Assembly (NCBI GenBank): GCA_034189135.1
Contig: JAXHVO010000014.1
Location: forward strand, 1-64,000
DNA from: Thermodesulfobacteriota bacterium
GTDB lineage: Bacteria; Desulfobacterota; Desulfobacteria; Desulfobacterales; JAUWMJ01
Length of the DNA stretch: 64,000 nt
Reading direction: 5' to 3'
The stretch's first letter is position 1. Every line of letters starts with the position of its first letter. Below, piece by piece: positions 4,765 to 12,260 of this stretch. Made by a program: the position numbers and the translations under genes. A model generated the notes under the pieces. The model did not search any database. It was not told the DNA's origin and saw only the letters and a list, made by a program, of their open reading frames with translations.

Positions 4765-7146
4765 TCATTTCAAAAGAAATGTCACTGTAATGCTACCTGT
4801 TTTACTTCCTTTTGGAGATAGAAACCGAAGGGTTTTTAGTTTTTGAATCATGCAGCCTTCAAGCGCTTGGACCTTCTTGGTGCCGCTCCCCCGGATTACT
4901 TTTGTCACCCTGCCGCTGGAATCGACCTTTAAAGTAAATATAAACTCTTTTTTTAGATTCCATTGCCACCAATGTTTCTTGTCGTAGCACCGATTTATGG
5001 TGGGAACAAACTTTTCAAATATTGTCACAACTGCTTCTCTTCTCAGTCTTCCGTTTACAGAGATTTTGCCTAATTTAATATGAATACGTTTATGATTTTC
5101 TTTATCTGAGATCGTCCCTGAAGATAAGATATCATCCTTTTCGTCTTCACATCTTTCTCTCTTTTCTTCCATCGGTTTACTTCTGCGGACCAGTAAAGAT
5201 GGAGAAGCCGCAAGGGGTGAAATCCCTTTTGCCATACGAGATTTTCCTCCCACAGCGTAATCGGAAACGCCTTGGGGCAATGGTAAAGGCTGCCTGACCG
5301 TTGAAGCTTTGCCGTGTTTTAATCGGGCCTGCGTATCAACGGCAACAAATGAAGTATATCGGGTTAAAAGGTTATAGGTGAGGCCAAGGCTTGTGACCTC
5401 CTTGACTAGCTCATCGTCAGGTCCTAACCGATTATAATCGGACAGAAGAGCAATACGGTGCCTGGCCCACAAATAACGAAGAGCAAAGTTTGTTTTTAAT
5501 GGTTCTACTTTTGCCACATTTACTTTCTTCCTGTAGGTGTGGTCTCCGGCAATTCCTTTCACAACTATACTGCCCTGTGGCGTGCCGCGCCATTTGCCGA
5601 AAAGAATAACAGGACGCTGGGCCATTACATCGGGGATGCTTGGCGGTTCAATGTCATAGGTTTTAAATTTGTCAAAGTCCACTGTAATTCCTGTCAAAAC
5701 CGGCGACTCAATTAGCTTTCTGGATTTTACCGCCTTTTGCTGTGCTTCATCCGGCCGAGTAATGATAAACGGTTCTCCCATACCGACTCTGGCCATTCCT
5801 TCGATAAGATAGCGGTTTACGCTGGATCCGATACCAAAGGCAAACATATTGGCAGTGCCGAGATTGTTTCGGATCAGGTCAAATGCTTCTTTTTCAACGG
5901 AAACATAACCATCGGTAACAATGACCACGTTGCGCGAGTACCCTTTGGTCCCCTGCAAAGAAAGTGCTTTTTTCAACGCCGGAAGCAACCGGGTTCCTCC
6001 TCCGCCCCGCTGGCGCTCAATGACATTGATGGCATGATTAATATTCTGTCGGGTTGCCGGCAAAGACCTTTCCGACATTACAGTAGACCCCCCTGCAAAC
6101 AAAAGAACGTTAAACCTGTCGGATGAACGCAGGTTACCGATCAAATCTTTAAGAAGTTTTTTGGATATATTTAAAGGAAAACCGTTCATAGATCCTGAAA
6201 CGTCCACAATAAACATATATTCTCGAGGAGGTATCTGGTACTCTTTTACCCGCTTGGGGGGTTGAAGCATGAGCAGAAAAAAGTTTTCCCTTTCCCCTGT
6301 GGAAAGAAGAAGTCCTGTTTCTATCTTTCCGCCGGCAAGCCGGTATTTTAATATAAAATCACGGTTTCCCGCATATTGTTCAGATGGGTTAAGCTGAATG
6401 GATGCAAAATTTGATCCCTTATATCGGATATCAACCTTGTGTGTTTCACAACTGATGTCCTGAATAGGAAGACCTGCCGCAAGGTCTAATTTCATATCGA
6501 AGGTATAGGGTGCCGATTCTCCCTCATGAAGATATGGATTTGACGTCCAGTTTTCCGATGATCCCTTCTGGTCTGACGGCTGGTCAACATAGCGAGGGCC
6601 CACAACCGTCGGATAAACAAACTGGTAAACCGTATCGGTGGGTATCAGCAGCTCGTTATATTTAAGCTCCACCTTTATCAAGTCCCCTGGCAGAACATTT
6701 GCCACATTCATCTGAAATACATTGGGCCGCTGCTGTTCTAAAAGTGATGCACTCTTTCCTTCCTGTTTGGCCTGCTCATATTCGCGACGGGCTGCCTCAC
6801 GCTCTCGAATTTTAGCAGTAATCACACGTTCGCCGATGGTCATTTTCATCCCGTAAACCGCAGCCCGGGTAGAAGCGGGGAACACGTAAATCGCCTCTAA
6901 AGGCTTTTTGCCTTCATTTTTATAAATCTGTGTAATCATGACATCAGCAATAACGCCTGAAATATTTACTTTTGCTGAAGTCGATTTCAGTGGCAACCGC
7001 TCTGTCTGAGGATCGTCACTCTTCACAAAAAAATACGGTGATAATGTCTGATGGGCATTTTTTTCCGGTTGTGCCAAAATGGTTTTTGCCAGCAGCAGCC
7101 CAAAAGCTGCGATGAGAATCGTTACTGTTATTTTTTTAAGTTTCAT
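4765..7146 (-). CDS. Secreted VIT / von Willebrand A protein with TonB-like (AgmX/PglI) C-terminus
   Basis: A 793-residue exported protein. Residues 1-26 form a signal peptide ending near ILAQP. Residues about 35-165 are a VIT domain, as in inter-alpha-trypsin inhibitor heavy chains and bacterial marine sortase-target relatives. A vWA domain starts at about 308, with the MIDAS motif DxSxS at residues 315-319 (DVSGSMNG), so it should bind a divalent metal and a protein ligand. The last ~100 residues (from GKISVNGRLRREAV) resemble the AgmX/PglI TonB-like domain, with Cys and basic residues around NRCYDKK. An AAAGGAGG site precedes the start. No sortase motif or C-terminal membrane anchor is seen, so the protein is probably periplasmic or surface attached. 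Divergent from the pseudokinase-protease gene. Confidence 0.82.
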   Translation of the reverse strand: MKLKKITVTILIAAFGLLLAKTILAQPEKNAHQTLSPYFFVKSDDPQTERLPLKSTSAKVNISGVIADVMITQIYKNEGKKPLEAIYVFPASTRAAVYGMKMTIGERVITAKIREREAARREYEQAKQEGKSASLLEQQRPNVFQMNVANVLPGDLIKVELKYNELLIPTDTVYQFVYPTVVGPRYVDQPSDQKGSSENWTSNPYLHEGESAPYTFDMKLDLAAGLPIQDISCETHKVDIRYKGSNFASIQLNPSEQYAGNRDFILKYRLAGGKIETGLLLSTGERENFFLLMLQPPKRVKEYQIPPREYMFIVDVSGSMNGFPLNISKKLLKDLIGNLRSSDRFNVLLFAGGSTVMSERSLPATRQNINHAINVIERQRGGGGTRLLPALKKALSLQGTKGYSRNVVIVTDGYVSVEKEAFDLIRNNLGTANMFAFGIGSSVNRYLIEGMARVGMGEPFIITRPDEAQQKAVKSRKLIESPVLTGITVDFDKFKTYDIEPPSIPDVMAQRPVILFGKWRGTPQGSIVVKGIAGDHTYRKKVNVAKVEPLKTNFALRYLWARHRIALLSDYNRLGPDDELVKEVTSLGLTYNLLTRYTSFVAVDTQARLKHGKASTVRQPLPLPQGVSDYAVGGKSRMAKGISPLAASPSLLVRRSKPMEEKRERCEDEKDDILSSGTISDKENHKRIHIKLGKISVNGRLRREAVVTIFEKFVPTINRCYDKKHWWQWNLKKEFIFTLKVDSSGRVTKVIRGSGTKKVQALEGCMIQKLKTLRFLSPKGSKTGSITVTFLLK

Positions 7147-7507
7147 GGTAAACCTCCTTTTGTTTTTTTTGGTTTTATCTGCTTAGACAAAAGGCAGGCA
7201 AAAAAGTTCCCAAAAAATTTGATTTAAAATTGAGGTGTCCAATCTTAGCATTGTTAACTTAGGTTCTTAGAGTGGAGACTGCTTTTTTCAGGCTTGATAG
7301 AGATATGGCAGGTTTTTGATAAATTGATATAATAAACAATTTCTGTTATAAGGAACATACTATAAATTGAAGCGCCTGGGCGAATCGGCTTTCTTAATAT
7401 TGAACCCCACTGTAATTGAAGGACGTTTTGAAACTGATTTACCTTCGCCCTGATACCGGCAATTTGTGCTGGTTTTGTCATACACGTTCAACGAGCTCAC
7501 TATAATC
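7147..7507. other. Divergent intergenic region without genes
   Basis: 361 bp separate the starts of the VIT-vWA gene (-) and the pseudokinase-protease gene (+), so promoters for both must lie here. A TATAAT is present at 7328-7333, but no good -35 sits at 16-18 bp from it. No repeat or structured element was recognised. Short frames crossing the region have no protein-like features. Confidence 0.5.
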
Positions 7508-10500
7508 ATGAAAATATGCCAAAAATGTGGACAAATGGTGGCCGAAGAGATCTTGTCCTGCCCTTCTTGCGGGAATGAAGTGGTTGAAGGAAGAAAATAT
7601 ATAGATGATTATCAAATTGTCGAAGTCCTCCACGAAGGATATTCCAGCATCCTATGCCGTGCGATTAAGGAGGGCACGGATGATCCGGTAATGATCCGCA
7701 TTTTCACGCTTCAATCCGGAGTCGATGAGGAGATCGCTGAGCGGCTACAGGAAGAGCTTGAGGAACTTAAGAAGCTTCCGGAAAATTATTTCGTCAGGCA
7801 TTTGGAAATCCGAAAATCATCCGACGGACTTTGGTACAGGGTCAGTGAATGGATTGAAACGGAAACCTGGGGTAATTTGTTGGCCTCCGGTCGCCTCCAG
7901 GACTTTCGAACAGCTTGCAAACTTTTTTACAAGATCGCATCCATTCTCGAGGGTCTCCACCAAATCGGACATTTTATCCCCCACCTTATTTTAAATGACC
8001 TGATTATCATCAAGAACGACAAAAAAGATCTTGAAGTAAAAATAGATTACAAAGTTTCCCGCTTTCTTGATCCCCAGATGGGTCAGTCTCCCCCCATGCT
8101 GAAAAAACTTATTGCCAGCCATCCGGATATTATTCACCAGCGCCCCCTCGATTTCAGGAGTGGAATATGGTCTTTGGGAAAAGCTTTGGTGGAAATTCTT
8201 TCTGCTGACTATGAAATCAAAGATTTTCATGCCAAAATAGATGAATTGCAACTCCCCCAAGATGCTAAAGTTCTGCTAAAAATTATGCTGGCTGACGATC
8301 CCGATCTCAGGCCACAGTCGATGTCAGAGGTGGCTGATAACTTATCGCAGCTAATCGATAGTAAGGCTGAAGCCATACCATCTCCGGTAGTTGAAATCAG
8401 AGGGCTTAAAAAAAGAGTAAGCCTTCTGGTACTTATTTTGTCCATGCTGCTGGTAGTTGGCATATTGGCGTGGCTCTATTTTCCTTTCAAAAATCGAAAT
8501 AGCGAAGAGATCCTTGAAGATTTCGCCAACAGGTATGCGTCATCCGTCGCCTTTGTTTTAGCCGATTACTGGCTGGAAGATGGAAAAAATTATTTTTACC
8601 GCAATCGAACCGAAGGAACCGCCTTTCTGGTGGATAAAGAAGGCTACCTCCTGACCAATCGCCACGTTGCCTGTCCATGGCTGGAGGATAATAACCTTTA
8701 TATACTGATTAACCGGCTCAAACAGCTTCAAAGACCTGTTCGTTTAGGATATCGACTCTTTTTATGGTTTGAAGGGGAAAAAGCCTTTAAACGCCTGCCG
8801 AACTTACCCGGCAGCCCCGATTTAGAAGATATTTATTTTGTTGAATCCGCATATAGTACTGATGGAATTTCCCGGCTGACCATAGCTGGAGTCGCCAAAC
8901 CGCCGGTGAAGACCTGGCAACTGATCAAATCTCCACTTAAGGATGACTTTGCTGTGCTAAAAGTGGACCGGCTTCCTGATGGACTGGTCCCGCTGCCCAT
9001 TGACTATGAAATGGAAGCGTTGAAAATTCAAAAACTTTCACCGGTAATTACACTGGGATTTCCTCTCGGCAGCCGCACCCAGGCAAATACAGTGAATGTC
9101 AGTGTGACCAGGGGACATGTCCGGCGAACATTTGAAAACCTGATTCAGGTGGATACATCCATACACCGGGGTAACAGTGGGGGACCAATTATTGATACCA
9201 GCGGGAAAGTGATCGGTATTGCCTCAAAAGTGGCTGCAGACTACACCGCCGGCCCCAGGCCGGTAATCACTCTTCTGTCGGACATAGGAATGGTACTGCC
9301 CATAACCAAGGCTGCGGCCTTTCTTAATGAATTGAAATCCGGGCAAACCAAATGGAACGGCGTTTTAGACCTATCCGTTGATATCAAGATAAAACAGATT
9401 GCCGATTTGGCCCGTAAGGGGAAATGGGACCAGGCCAGAGCACTGGCCGATAAAGACCTGAAGGTAAGTTTTGATCCCATGCTGGTTATGGCAGCAGGAA
9501 TGATGCACCTTTGTTCAGAAGACTACCAGGGAGCAAAGCACCTTTTCAGCCAAGCTTTATCAATGGATAGCGAAAATAATCAAGCAAGGTGGATGCTTTT
9601 TTTAATCGATTGGATGGAAAACCGGTCAACTGTGAGTCTTTATCGCCAGGAATTAATCGCTTTGGACTGGCGGTCGCCGTTCGAGTTTTACGGTTACCTG
9701 GTGCAGGTTCTGGAAAGACTCATAGATGAAGCCTCAGCCGTTAGGGGTGGGTATTCCGAGGATGAGAAGAGCTGGCTTTACTATATCCTTAGCCTTGTTC
9801 GTCTAAATCAGGGAAACCTGGAAGATTCCGAGACGCTGCTGAGAAAGGCTGTATTGGTCGCTAACAACGACAGCTGGCCTTATCTCCTATCTATTTCCAG
9901 GCTGGAACAGGTTCAAAAACAACGGCTGGCATCCCTGAAAAGAAAAACCAAAAGAACTGGATATCTATCTGATACAAAAAAATTTTCGCAAACAATAAAA
10001 AAAGACTATTTGCTCAAAAAAGAACGCCTTGAAAAACTCGCACCTCTTGTTTCCAGGCTTAAAGCAAATTCCATAACTCCGGGAGACAAGCGGGAAATAT
10101 TAGAAAAAATCATGGAGATTGTTAAAGTTAATGATGCCATCCTCGTGGGGATGGCCTATTACAGCGCGATGAGCGAAGAATGGGAGCTTGCCCTGAAGTA
10201 TGCCCGGGCTTTCCTTGAAGTTGGAGGTCGAGAAAATGCAGGACGTTTAAGCGTTGGTTTGCTGGAGCCCTGTATACTGAACCATATGGGTCGAAAAGAT
10301 GAAGCAATGAAAAGACTCAAAGTGCTCAGTGTTCAGACAAATAATCATTGGTACAGACATATCGCAAAATGCCTGCTGGGTGAAGAAACCGAGCAATCCA
10401 TTGTTAAAAGAACGGGTGAAAGCCCGGAATATATGCTTACCGCCCATTGTGCTCTGGGATTCTGGGCAGAAGGTATCGGTGAAAACAAGAAAGCGTTAAA

Positions 10501-10585
10501 GCACTATAAAGAGGCCCTTGGATCGTATATGGATGACTGGCTCGAATACGAGTTTACCGTGGAGCGGATCAAAAAGTTGAAATAG
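7508..10585 (+). CDS. Zinc-ribbon / pseudokinase / TM / trypsin-like protease / TPR protein
   Basis: A 1025-residue multidomain protein. Residues 1-25 are a zinc ribbon (Cys4, Cys7, Cys18, Cys21). Residues ~32-285 have a Ser/Thr-kinase-like fold but look inactive: the beta-3 lysine is Arg64, the HRD aspartate is replaced (HFI at 155-157), DFG reads DYK at 180-182 and the alpha-F aspartate is Gly219. A transmembrane helix spans ~304-325. A trypsin-like S1C domain follows with an intact triad His386 (TNRHV), Asp480 (DDFAVLKV) and Ser557 (GNSGGP). Residues ~625-1025 are helical TPR-type repeats. Likely topology: kinase-like part in the cytoplasm, protease and TPRs in the periplasm. The ATG at 7508 starts the zinc ribbon; the frame is open to 7466. 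Probably an envelope-stress or signalling protease. Confidence 0.85.
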   Translation: MKICQKCGQMVAEEILSCPSCGNEVVEGRKYIDDYQIVEVLHEGYSSILCRAIKEGTDDPVMIRIFTLQSGVDEEIAERLQEELEELKKLPENYFVRHLEIRKSSDGLWYRVSEWIETETWGNLLASGRLQDFRTACKLFYKIASILEGLHQIGHFIPHLILNDLIIIKNDKKDLEVKIDYKVSRFLDPQMGQSPPMLKKLIASHPDIIHQRPLDFRSGIWSLGKALVEILSADYEIKDFHAKIDELQLPQDAKVLLKIMLADDPDLRPQSMSEVADNLSQLIDSKAEAIPSPVVEIRGLKKRVSLLVLILSMLLVVGILAWLYFPFKNRNSEEILEDFANRYASSVAFVLADYWLEDGKNYFYRNRTEGTAFLVDKEGYLLTNRHVACPWLEDNNLYILINRLKQLQRPVRLGYRLFLWFEGEKAFKRLPNLPGSPDLEDIYFVESAYSTDGISRLTIAGVAKPPVKTWQLIKSPLKDDFAVLKVDRLPDGLVPLPIDYEMEALKIQKLSPVITLGFPLGSRTQANTVNVSVTRGHVRRTFENLIQVDTSIHRGNSGGPIIDTSGKVIGIASKVAADYTAGPRPVITLLSDIGMVLPITKAAAFLNELKSGQTKWNGVLDLSVDIKIKQIADLARKGKWDQARALADKDLKVSFDPMLVMAAGMMHLCSEDYQGAKHLFSQALSMDSENNQARWMLFLIDWMENRSTVSLYRQELIALDWRSPFEFYGYLVQVLERLIDEASAVRGGYSEDEKSWLYYILSLVRLNQGNLEDSETLLRKAVLVANNDSWPYLLSISRLEQVQKQRLASLKRKTKRTGYLSDTKKFSQTIKKDYLLKKERLEKLAPLVSRLKANSITPGDKREILEKIMEIVKVNDAILVGMAYYSAMSEEWELALKYARAFLEVGGRENAGRLSVGLLEPCILNHMGRKDEAMKRLKVLSVQTNNHWYRHIAKCLLGEETEQSIVKRTGESPEYMLTAHCALGFWAEGIGENKKALKHYKEALGSYMDDWLEYEFTVERIKKLK

Positions 10586-10595
10586 ATTTCAAAAC

Positions 10596-10619
10596 AGACA
10601 CTCATAAAAGGGAGTGTCT
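10596..10619 (+). terminator. Stem-loop after the pseudokinase-protease gene
   Basis: AGACACTC at 10596-10603 pairs with GAGTGTCT at 10612-10619 over an 8-base loop, 10 bp after the stop codon. The following CTCATTTAG is a weak U-tract. A plausible intrinsic terminator. Confidence 0.5.
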
Positions 10620-10695
10620 CTCATTTAGTAGAAAGGGTAAGTTAAGCAAGATCAAAATATAATGAATTAAAGGGCTGCAAAGTTTTTCATTCTCT

Positions 10696-10966
10696 ACTCA
10701 GTTTGTCCGAAGAAGTGCCCCAATCCCAATTGGTTAAACCCGATTTCCCGATAAATAGCCGGCTGCCACTCTTATGGAAAAATTTGAAGAGGGCTTTATG
10801 TTTTCCTATCATGATGATACTTGGTGCCGGTTTGACAAAACCAGACCTACTTAATTGGGGGGTCGCAATGGCCTTTTTTGTGAACTGTTTGATCTTTAAG
10901 GATTGTTATACTGTTTGCCATATTGGTCAGTCAGGGGAAGCGTCCATTTGCCCGGACGAACTGAGT
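10696..10966. repeat. Inverted-repeat element, copy 1 (MITE-like)
   Basis: This gene-free stretch is bounded by ACTCAGTTTGTCCG (10696-10709) and its near-perfect inverse CGGACGAACTGAGT (10953-10966). The left end, 10696-10720, matches the right end of a second element at 35248-35272 in 21 of 25 positions after inversion. A box at 10867-10899 (GCCTTTTTTGTGAA...) also recurs at 34982-35014, and CATTTGCCC follows in both. A 90-codon frame inside lacks protein character. It fills most of the 406-bp gap between the protease gene and the thiolase. Probably a non-autonomous mobile element; no transposase of the family is in the window. Confidence 0.6.
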
Positions 10967-10991
10967 GGCGATTGAAAAACTCCCCGACCCT

Positions 10992-12260
10992 TCATTTAAT
11001 CCTTTTAAGGGTTGTGGCGCAGTTCGTAACCGCCGAGCCACCGACATTAAAAACAACCCCGATTTCCGGCTGTCGCTTTTGAGGTGCTGCGCCTATCGGC
11101 TCACCCACCAGCTGTTTATAAGCCAGGGCATGCATGGAAGTGCCGGTGGCACCCACCGGATGGCCTTTGGACTTCAGACCTCCGGAAAGGTTTATCGGAC
11201 AGTCATCATCCCGTGTATACTTTCCTTCAATAAAATCCCACCCACCCTGACCATCTTTGGAGAGGCCAAGTGCTTCCACACTGAGAATTTGATTGATGGT
11301 AAAACAATCATGAACTTCAGCGAAGTCAACGTCTTCTATGGTAATACCGGCCTCCTCAAACGATTTATTAATCGCCTGTTTACCCGCTGTGAGCTCATGC
11401 ATATTGGGTCGTACATTTTCCGCCAGCCTTTCGGTGGTTTGGCCAATGCCGGTGATTTCAACAGCCCTGTTGCTGATAGAGACGGCTTCATCGGTGGGAG
11501 CGATAACCAGGGCGGCCGCTCCGTCGGTCACCAGTGAGCAATCGTGCAATCTCAACGGAGGGGCAATCATGGGATTGCCTCCCTTACCTCCATCAGGGAG
11601 GCTTAAGATTGCTTCTGAATTGGTAAGGCCCAGCCTGTCCGGCGGACTTCCCTTACCGAAATGGGCCAGAGGATTTTCCAAACCGTTACGGTAGCATAGA
11701 GCTGATACGGCTGCCAGCATTTGCCGTAATTCTTCGGCACTGTACCCGTAATGCGCTTGATAGCCTTTGGCATATTCGGCAAACAGGCCCGGAAACGTCA
11801 TTCCTTTTGAACCCTCTGTGGGCCAGTGGGATGAACAGGCCAGTACGTGGGTCATGTCTTTGGTGCTTAGCAGATTCATTTTTTCCACGCCGATAATAAG
11901 CGCTCTGTTAAATCGTCCGGATTCGATCCCATATACGGCATTATAGAGCGCCACCGATGATGATGCACAGGCTCCTTCTGTGCGTGTGGTGGGAATAAAA
12001 CGCATCGATTCAGGGGCCACTTCCAGTCCCAGCGGTCCGACATGCTCTTGATTAAGAAAGAGTGAAGGGGAACAGGAGCCAACCCAGATGCCGTCAATCT
12101 CCTCCGGCTCCAGGCCGGCATCTGCAAGGGCACCTTTCCCGGCCTCGATCAACAAATCATAGTAGGAGACCATGTCTTTGACCTCTCCCGTTTCTCTGTT
12201 TTTTTCAACAAACGCCCCAAACTTTGTATTGTATGCACCAATGATGCTGACTTTACTCAT
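10992..12260 (-). CDS. Thiolase-family acetyl-CoA C-acyltransferase
   Basis: A 422-residue thiolase-superfamily enzyme. Active-site Cys98 lies in EGACASSS, the conserved histidine in EVHDCFT, and the C-terminal loop is NLSGGLKSKGHPVGATG. It belongs to the same broad SCP-x-like branch as the thiolase at 2199 but is only distantly related, with a different N-terminus and insertions. It should thiolyse or form 3-ketoacyl-CoA in the cytoplasm. GGAAAAC precedes the start. It lies 115 bp downstream of a co-directional SDR gene; the pair probably forms one operon fed by the -24/-12 promoter candidate at 13206-13221. No DUF35 partner is adjacent, unlike the first thiolase. Confidence 0.88.
   Translation of the reverse strand: MSKVSIIGAYNTKFGAFVEKNRETGEVKDMVSYYDLLIEAGKGALADAGLEPEEIDGIWVGSCSPSLFLNQEHVGPLGLEVAPESMRFIPTTRTEGACASSSVALYNAVYGIESGRFNRALIIGVEKMNLLSTKDMTHVLACSSHWPTEGSKGMTFPGLFAEYAKGYQAHYGYSAEELRQMLAAVSALCYRNGLENPLAHFGKGSPPDRLGLTNSEAILSLPDGGKGGNPMIAPPLRLHDCSLVTDGAAALVIAPTDEAVSISNRAVEITGIGQTTERLAENVRPNMHELTAGKQAINKSFEEAGITIEDVDFAEVHDCFTINQILSVEALGLSKDGQGGWDFIEGKYTRDDDCPINLSGGLKSKGHPVGATGTSMHALAYKQLVGEPIGAAPQKRQPEIGVVFNVGGSAVTNCATTLKRIK

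Follow-up and report, generated by a model that had tools for sequence, protein, structure and literature searches.

The gene at positions 7508-10585 of the window (plus strand; the window is the whole stretch of 64,000 nucleotides that was analysed) raises the question of what a kinase fold with replaced catalytic residues does when it shares one chain with a trypsin-like protease whose triad is intact. The uninterrupted open reading frame runs from an ATG to a stop codon and encodes a product of 1025 amino acids, in which a zinc ribbon, a protein kinase fold, one membrane helix, the protease and TPR-like helices follow each other in this order. The initial annotation had named a zinc ribbon, a kinase-like region, a single membrane helix, the S1C triad His386/Asp480/Ser557 and TPRs, and each of these parts was recovered by the evidence given below. 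An in-frame GTG lies 42 bases upstream of the ATG. Since Met1 is invariant in the family alignment of 65 sequences, the ATG at 7508 is likely to be the start codon rather than the upstream GTG. A possible, weak sigma-70-type promoter (ATGGCA-17-TATAAT with an extended TG, 7305-7333, plus strand, 10/12 matches) comes solely from a consensus scan, which returned 12 sites in the region where 6.7 would be expected.

Zinc ribbon and kinase fold

The first module, residues 1-29 (7508-7594, plus strand), carries the CxxC...CxxC metal site of a zinc ribbon, to judge from C4, C7, C18 and C21, which are unchanged in 65/65 aligned relatives. Pfam zinc-ribbon models remained below their cut-off in the window protein (weak, residues 1-24) and reached 9e-6 at best in other members, and Zn_ribbon_3 matched 34 of 43 members at E 0.01.

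By profile and predicted structure, residues 30-290 (7595-8377, plus strand) form a protein kinase fold of the PF00069 superfamily. Pfam Pkinase matched residues 35-283 with 33.8 bits when the N-terminal 321 residues were searched alone (cut-off 31.7) and with 30.0 bits, slightly under this cut-off, on the full protein; all 43 of the 43 scanned relatives were matched at E 0.01. A profile built from these 43 relatives found 741 distinct PDB sequences at E 0.01, with ULK3 as the best (9e-14) and PknB at 6.5e-10. In agreement with this, the AlphaFold2 model of residues 1-321 from the same alignment (pLDDT 88, pTM 0.82) shows an N-lobe sheet, alphaC at 74-87, alphaE at 133-152 and alphaF at 216-232, with a poorly ordered activation segment at 186-192. 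The best Foldseek match of the model was PknB of M. tuberculosis (E 1.8e-12), and the human pseudokinase MLKL was within the top 20.

Motifs were counted over the 65 aligned full-length relatives, and their placement was controlled by aligning the family profile with two canonical kinases encoded in this genome; the VAIK, HRD, DFG, APE and alphaF motifs of both fell at the expected positions. VAIK reads VMIR, with R64 in place of the beta-3 Lys in 65/65. At HRDxK..N the window protein has I157-P158-H159-x-I161..D164, in which I161 occupies the position of the catalytic-loop Lys; throughout the family the HRD Asp is absent (65/65) and the metal-binding (Mg) Asn is replaced by Asp (D164, 65/65). 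DFG reads D180-Y181-K182, the Gly being Lys in 65/65 and position 180 being D in 46/65 and N in 19/65, and APE at the end of the activation segment is H205-P206-D207 in the window protein. The initial annotation had listed the beta-3 Lys, the HRD Asp and the alphaF Asp as lost. The first two losses hold for every member, but the third holds for the window protein (G219) and not family-wide, as the Asp is retained in 43/65; of the 19 sequences with N180, 16 have also lost the alphaF Asp. Read from the alignment, the motif set of this pseudokinase is R for the beta-3 Lys, (I/M)P(H/Y) for HRD and (D/N)YK for DFG, and no member combines the beta-3 Lys, the HRD Asp and the DFG Asp and Gly by which an active Ser/Thr kinase is defined. 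A search for catalytic residues that are displaced but present found no displaced HRD Asp. The only invariant acidic residue nearby, D164, was rejected as a displaced catalytic Asp, since it aligns with the metal-binding Asn and not with the HRD Asp.

R64, E83 (the alphaC Glu), P158, D164 and K182 never vary among the 65 sequences. Since R64/E83, D164 and K182 are invariant, the pocket is kept in a definite altered form. Even L092, which at 30% identity is the most divergent member, has MPG, DYK and the R replacement together with an intact protease triad, and therefore the family was probably already a pseudokinase before it diversified. In the genome of the window protein, two further long proteins (L001 and L002, on contigs C34 and C97) carry a canonical Ser/Thr kinase at their C-terminal end (PF00069, 200 and 184 bits), and kinases with intact motifs thus coexist with the pseudokinase in one genome.

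In known kinases the DFG Asp is required for Mg. This bears on the suggestion of a hidden or new enzymatic activity that would use R64, E83, D164, D180 and K182, comparable to AMPylation by SelO or glutamylation by SidJ. The invariance of R64, E83, D164 and K182 speaks for it, and SelO and SidJ show that pseudokinases can be enzymes (PMC12599244). However, no member has a candidate base at the HRD position, and because nearly a third of the members have lost the DFG Asp, mostly alongside the alphaF Asp, we give hidden catalysis little credence.

Topology, protease and TPR arm

The pseudokinase is followed by a predicted transmembrane helix at about residues 303-325 (8414-8482, plus strand; hydropathy peak 2.8, helix 303-328 in the model). 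One strong N-terminal hydrophobic helix follows the pseudokinase in 65/65 relatives, and K/R residues are in excess on its N-terminal side in most members, the exceptions being L118, L103, L117 and L059. Zinc ribbons and kinase folds are typical of the cytoplasm. From the charge bias of the helix and the cytoplasmic nature of kinase folds we infer a cytoplasmic pseudokinase and a periplasmic protease and TPR arm, in keeping with one helix, the positive-inside pattern and no signal peptide seen. An inverted topology, or a helix that does not span the membrane, would let the protease act in the cytoplasm. The topology is read from hydropathy and charge, and the four exceptions have no clear charge bias; the strong helix in every member, the K/R excess in most of them and the usual cytoplasmic location of both N-terminal modules make this arrangement very unlikely.

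Residues 343-612 (8534-9343, plus strand) form a trypsin-like domain of the S1C type. Pfam Trypsin_2 (PF13365) matched residues 370-571 with 66.5 bits (cut-off 27.6), and the triad H386, D480 and S557, with S557 in GNSGGP, is invariant in 65 sequences. Foldseek related the protease model to the catalytic domains of human HTRA1 and DegS. The predicted trypsin fold, the His-Asp-Ser triad and GNSGG assign the domain to the S1C trypsin-like peptidases, and the protease is apparently active. The protease had also been called HtrA-like, which stands for the catalytic domain but not for the whole protein: no PDZ domain was found in Pfam at E up to 1, the helices come straight after the barrel in the model, and all NCBIfam HtrA models are far below cut-off. 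HtrA proteins contain a PDZ domain by definition, so that the protein is not an HtrA and the likeness is confined to the catalytic domain. In HtrA proteases the LD and L2 loops become ordered upon activation. The corresponding loops here, assigned by alignment (LD at about 524-528, L2 at about 578-588), have pLDDT values under 50, while most of the rest of the domain is predicted with confidence; this is at best compatible with a regulated ordering of the active site.

The remaining residues 613-1025 (9344-10582, plus strand) make up a TPR-like, all-helical arm. Pfam TPR_2 matched two stretches with 30.1 bits (cut-off 27), and the model places antiparallel helices there at high pLDDT.

Distribution, constraint and genomic context

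Of 389 genomes sampled from the order, 76 contain full-length relatives, and 65 relatives were aligned; some matches within the order are partial (contig ends, broken copies). The share at class level is similar (79/389 genomes), and relatives are rare in the rest of the phylum, with 5/395 genomes at E 1e-12, own genome included; one of these five has no more than a 35% match in the protease. Named records with relatives are Desulfobacteraceae, Desulfobacterales and 'Deltaproteobacteria' MAGs. Most of family f138 has a version that is 40-45% identical. The copies in three f138 genomes (L097, L098 and L034) are nested in the window clade at 78-80% identity, and this difference suggests lateral transfer.

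Compared with the window protein, relatives average 60% identity over the pseudokinase, 62% over the protease, 43% over the TPR arm and 36% over the membrane helix. Close pairs give dN/dS values of 0.08-0.20 (pseudokinase), 0.05-0.11 (protease) and 0.14-0.28 (TPR arm). The pseudokinase is under strong purifying selection though non-catalytic, and is constrained nearly as tightly as the protease. Since dozens of related bacteria retain this architecture, the 'dead' kinase must still serve a purpose, most likely docking or switching the protease. A decaying remnant of a receptor kinase, retained merely within the membrane anchor, would account for the lost catalytic residues and for the one paralogue that dropped the domain (L158, see below). 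It does not fit a constraint so near to that of the protease, nor the sharing of the same replacements by members as little as 30% identical overall, and for these two reasons we reject it as highly improbable.

A protease profile (E 1e-18, 194 genomes) revealed no separate intact protease family, its matches being family members or broken and partial copies. A pseudokinase profile (E 1e-20, 297 phylum genomes) matched no pseudokinase outside the fusion, and none of the relatives retrieved had a canonical kinase. Two natural part versions exist. In genome G499 a second copy (L158, G499:C186, minus strand, about 4551-2365) has the helix, an intact triad and TPRs, but neither zinc ribbon nor pseudokinase; a full-length copy (L099) is present in G499 as well, and L158 is a natural domain deletion. 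In genome G622 the locus L132:2185-3069 (plus strand) encodes a zinc-ribbon pseudokinase alone, of about 291 amino acids, which ends at a stop codon just short of the membrane helix. Its product is 67% identical to the nearest relative, and the genes around it are similar to those that flank the full-length gene in sister genomes. These two loci indicate that the modules can come apart. In a third genome (G416, L135:3388-4440, minus strand) the gene is split by frameshifts into several pieces, as a pseudogene or through an assembly error.

The gene is flanked by a divergent gene for a VIT/VWA protein and by a convergent thiolase-like gene. The divergent neighbour (window 4765-7146, minus strand) encodes 793 amino acids with VIT and VWA domains, and its C-terminal 130 residues, read by eye and without a Pfam match, resemble an added TonB/AgmX-type domain. 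No Rfam element was present in window positions 7000-11000. When the neighbours of the family loci were clustered and partly annotated, none was conserved beyond synteny inside family f138, and an operon partner was therefore rejected. The repeated neighbours in f138, again from sequences read by eye, resemble a RarA/MgsA-type recombination factor and the Der GTPase, are convergent and probably represent plain synteny. Since no neighbour is conserved outside this one family, the protein seems self-contained. A role in defence was rejected as well: the PADLOC matches (RT-Protease, PD-T4-6, mad6) reflect fold-level similarity of protease and kinase, and no defence context was seen.

Proposed role and relation to known systems

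We propose, and on balance modestly favour, that the cytoplasmic pseudokinase is a non-catalytic docking or regulatory module of a membrane-anchored periplasmic protease. We infer this role because a kinase fold with replaced catalytic residues is present in 65/65 members, because both domains are constrained, and because the subtypes were not found separately at the thresholds used. The conserved protein would pass the inner membrane once. Its cytoplasmic zinc ribbon and pseudokinase would not phosphorylate but bind a cytoplasmic partner or ligand, and this binding would position and/or switch the periplasmic trypsin-like protease, with the C-terminal TPR arm standing in for the PDZ domain of HtrA as the substrate- or partner-binding part. 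Regulation might act most simply through an altered oligomeric state or partner binding, by analogy with EssB/YukC. One point against the docking role is that the protease can probably do without the pseudokinase, since the paralogue L158 has dropped zinc ribbon and pseudokinase. Another point, against coupling, is the helix, which is short and poorly conserved with flanks that are disordered in the model, and which offers no hint of a mechanical transfer that has been tuned.

Allosteric signalling across the membrane, as put forward by the initial annotation, is possible. In its full form, a new pseudokinase family would read the state of the cytoplasm, perhaps as a nucleotide in the altered pocket, and would allosterically gate the periplasmic protease within one polypeptide; this we hold only tentatively and with some doubt. 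The signal might also run from outside to inside, if the TPR arm and the protease were the sensors of substrates or damage in the periplasm, with the pseudokinase as the cytoplasmic output, a docking site freed or rearranged on cleavage. The anatomy would be the same, membrane kinases of Planctomycetota commonly bear periplasmic TPR arrays (PMC11032199), and the zinc-ribbon pseudokinase is free-standing in one genome (G622, L132), but with no conserved partner gene as receiver of the output and no cleavage site identified we consider this direction unlikely.

The docking or regulatory reading matters since bacterial pseudokinases are poorly characterised by experiment. Here a dead kinase shares its chain with an apparently active enzyme whose output, proteolysis, is measurable, and dozens of orthologues of fixed architecture together with the natural 'half' versions make the function of a bacterial pseudokinase directly testable. 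If it is true that the pseudokinase gates the protease, information would pass from cytoplasm to periplasm without phosphorylation.

Nothing pertinent on a pseudokinase or kinase fused to trypsin/HtrA was found in the open-licence literature, and inactive kinases and trypsins have been described as separate parts of conflict systems (eLife e52696). A 2025 review of bacterial pseudokinase families covers ActPs1-3, GLW, CP1, DYD and DLHK as well as EssB, SidJ and SelO; neither trypsin nor peptidase is mentioned in it, and 'protease' appears only in a reference (PMC12599244). By motif the DYD pseudokinases are the nearest family, sharing the change of the beta-3 Lys to Arg, a Tyr in the DFG motif and the membrane association, but they lack the alphaC Glu, have a DYD motif, keep the catalytic-loop Asn and belong to Actinobacteria and Firmicutes (PMC12599244), whereas E83 is invariant here and the motif is (D/N)YK. 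GLW pseudokinases are described with GLW for HRD and Leu/Trp for the beta-3 Lys (PMC12599244), positions at which our family has (I/M)P(H/Y) and Arg. CP1 and DLHK pseudokinases are described without a transmembrane region and with linked COG3899 or helicase domains, and DLHK keeps the HRD Asp (PMC12599244); in our family the membrane helix is present in 65/65, the HRD Asp is absent, and Pfam finds protease and TPRs. ActPs3/MviN is likewise a bacterial pseudokinase in a membrane protein, and MviN recruits a regulator rather than phosphorylating, but as described it serves peptidoglycan synthesis, has VALT and no DFG, and bears no protease.

EssB/YukC of the T7SSb is described as a transmembrane bacterial pseudokinase that works via scaffolding and homodimerisation (PMC12599244). 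It shares the cytoplasmic pseudokinase with degraded motifs, the one helix and an extracytoplasmic part, the scaffold being likened by analogy and homology being compared at the kinase fold only; as far as described, it differs in its occurrence in Firmicutes, the lack of a protease and other replacement residues. With PknB of M. tuberculosis and the bacterial receptor Ser/Thr kinases (PASTA kinases) the protein shares the kinase fold, PknB being the best structural neighbour, and the order of cytoplasmic kinase, one helix and extracytoplasmic domain, but unlike PknB it is without catalytic motifs, has a zinc ribbon in front, and would carry a protease and TPRs outside where PknB has PASTA repeats. 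The membrane kinases of Planctomycetota with C-terminal TPR arrays have the same cytoplasmic kinase, single helix and periplasmic TPR array, but are described as Ser/Thr kinases without a protease, and PMC11032199 does not mention trypsin, peptidase or protease. DegS and HtrA share the membrane-anchored trypsin-like domain with intact triad and GNSGGP, and DegS and HTRA1 are structural matches, whereas our protein has a TPR arm instead of PDZ and a large N-terminal cytoplasmic module, and lies below every NCBIfam HtrA cut-off. Set apart from the known families (the motifs of ActPs1 and ActPs2 excepted), the family is apparently undescribed and a new combination of known parts.
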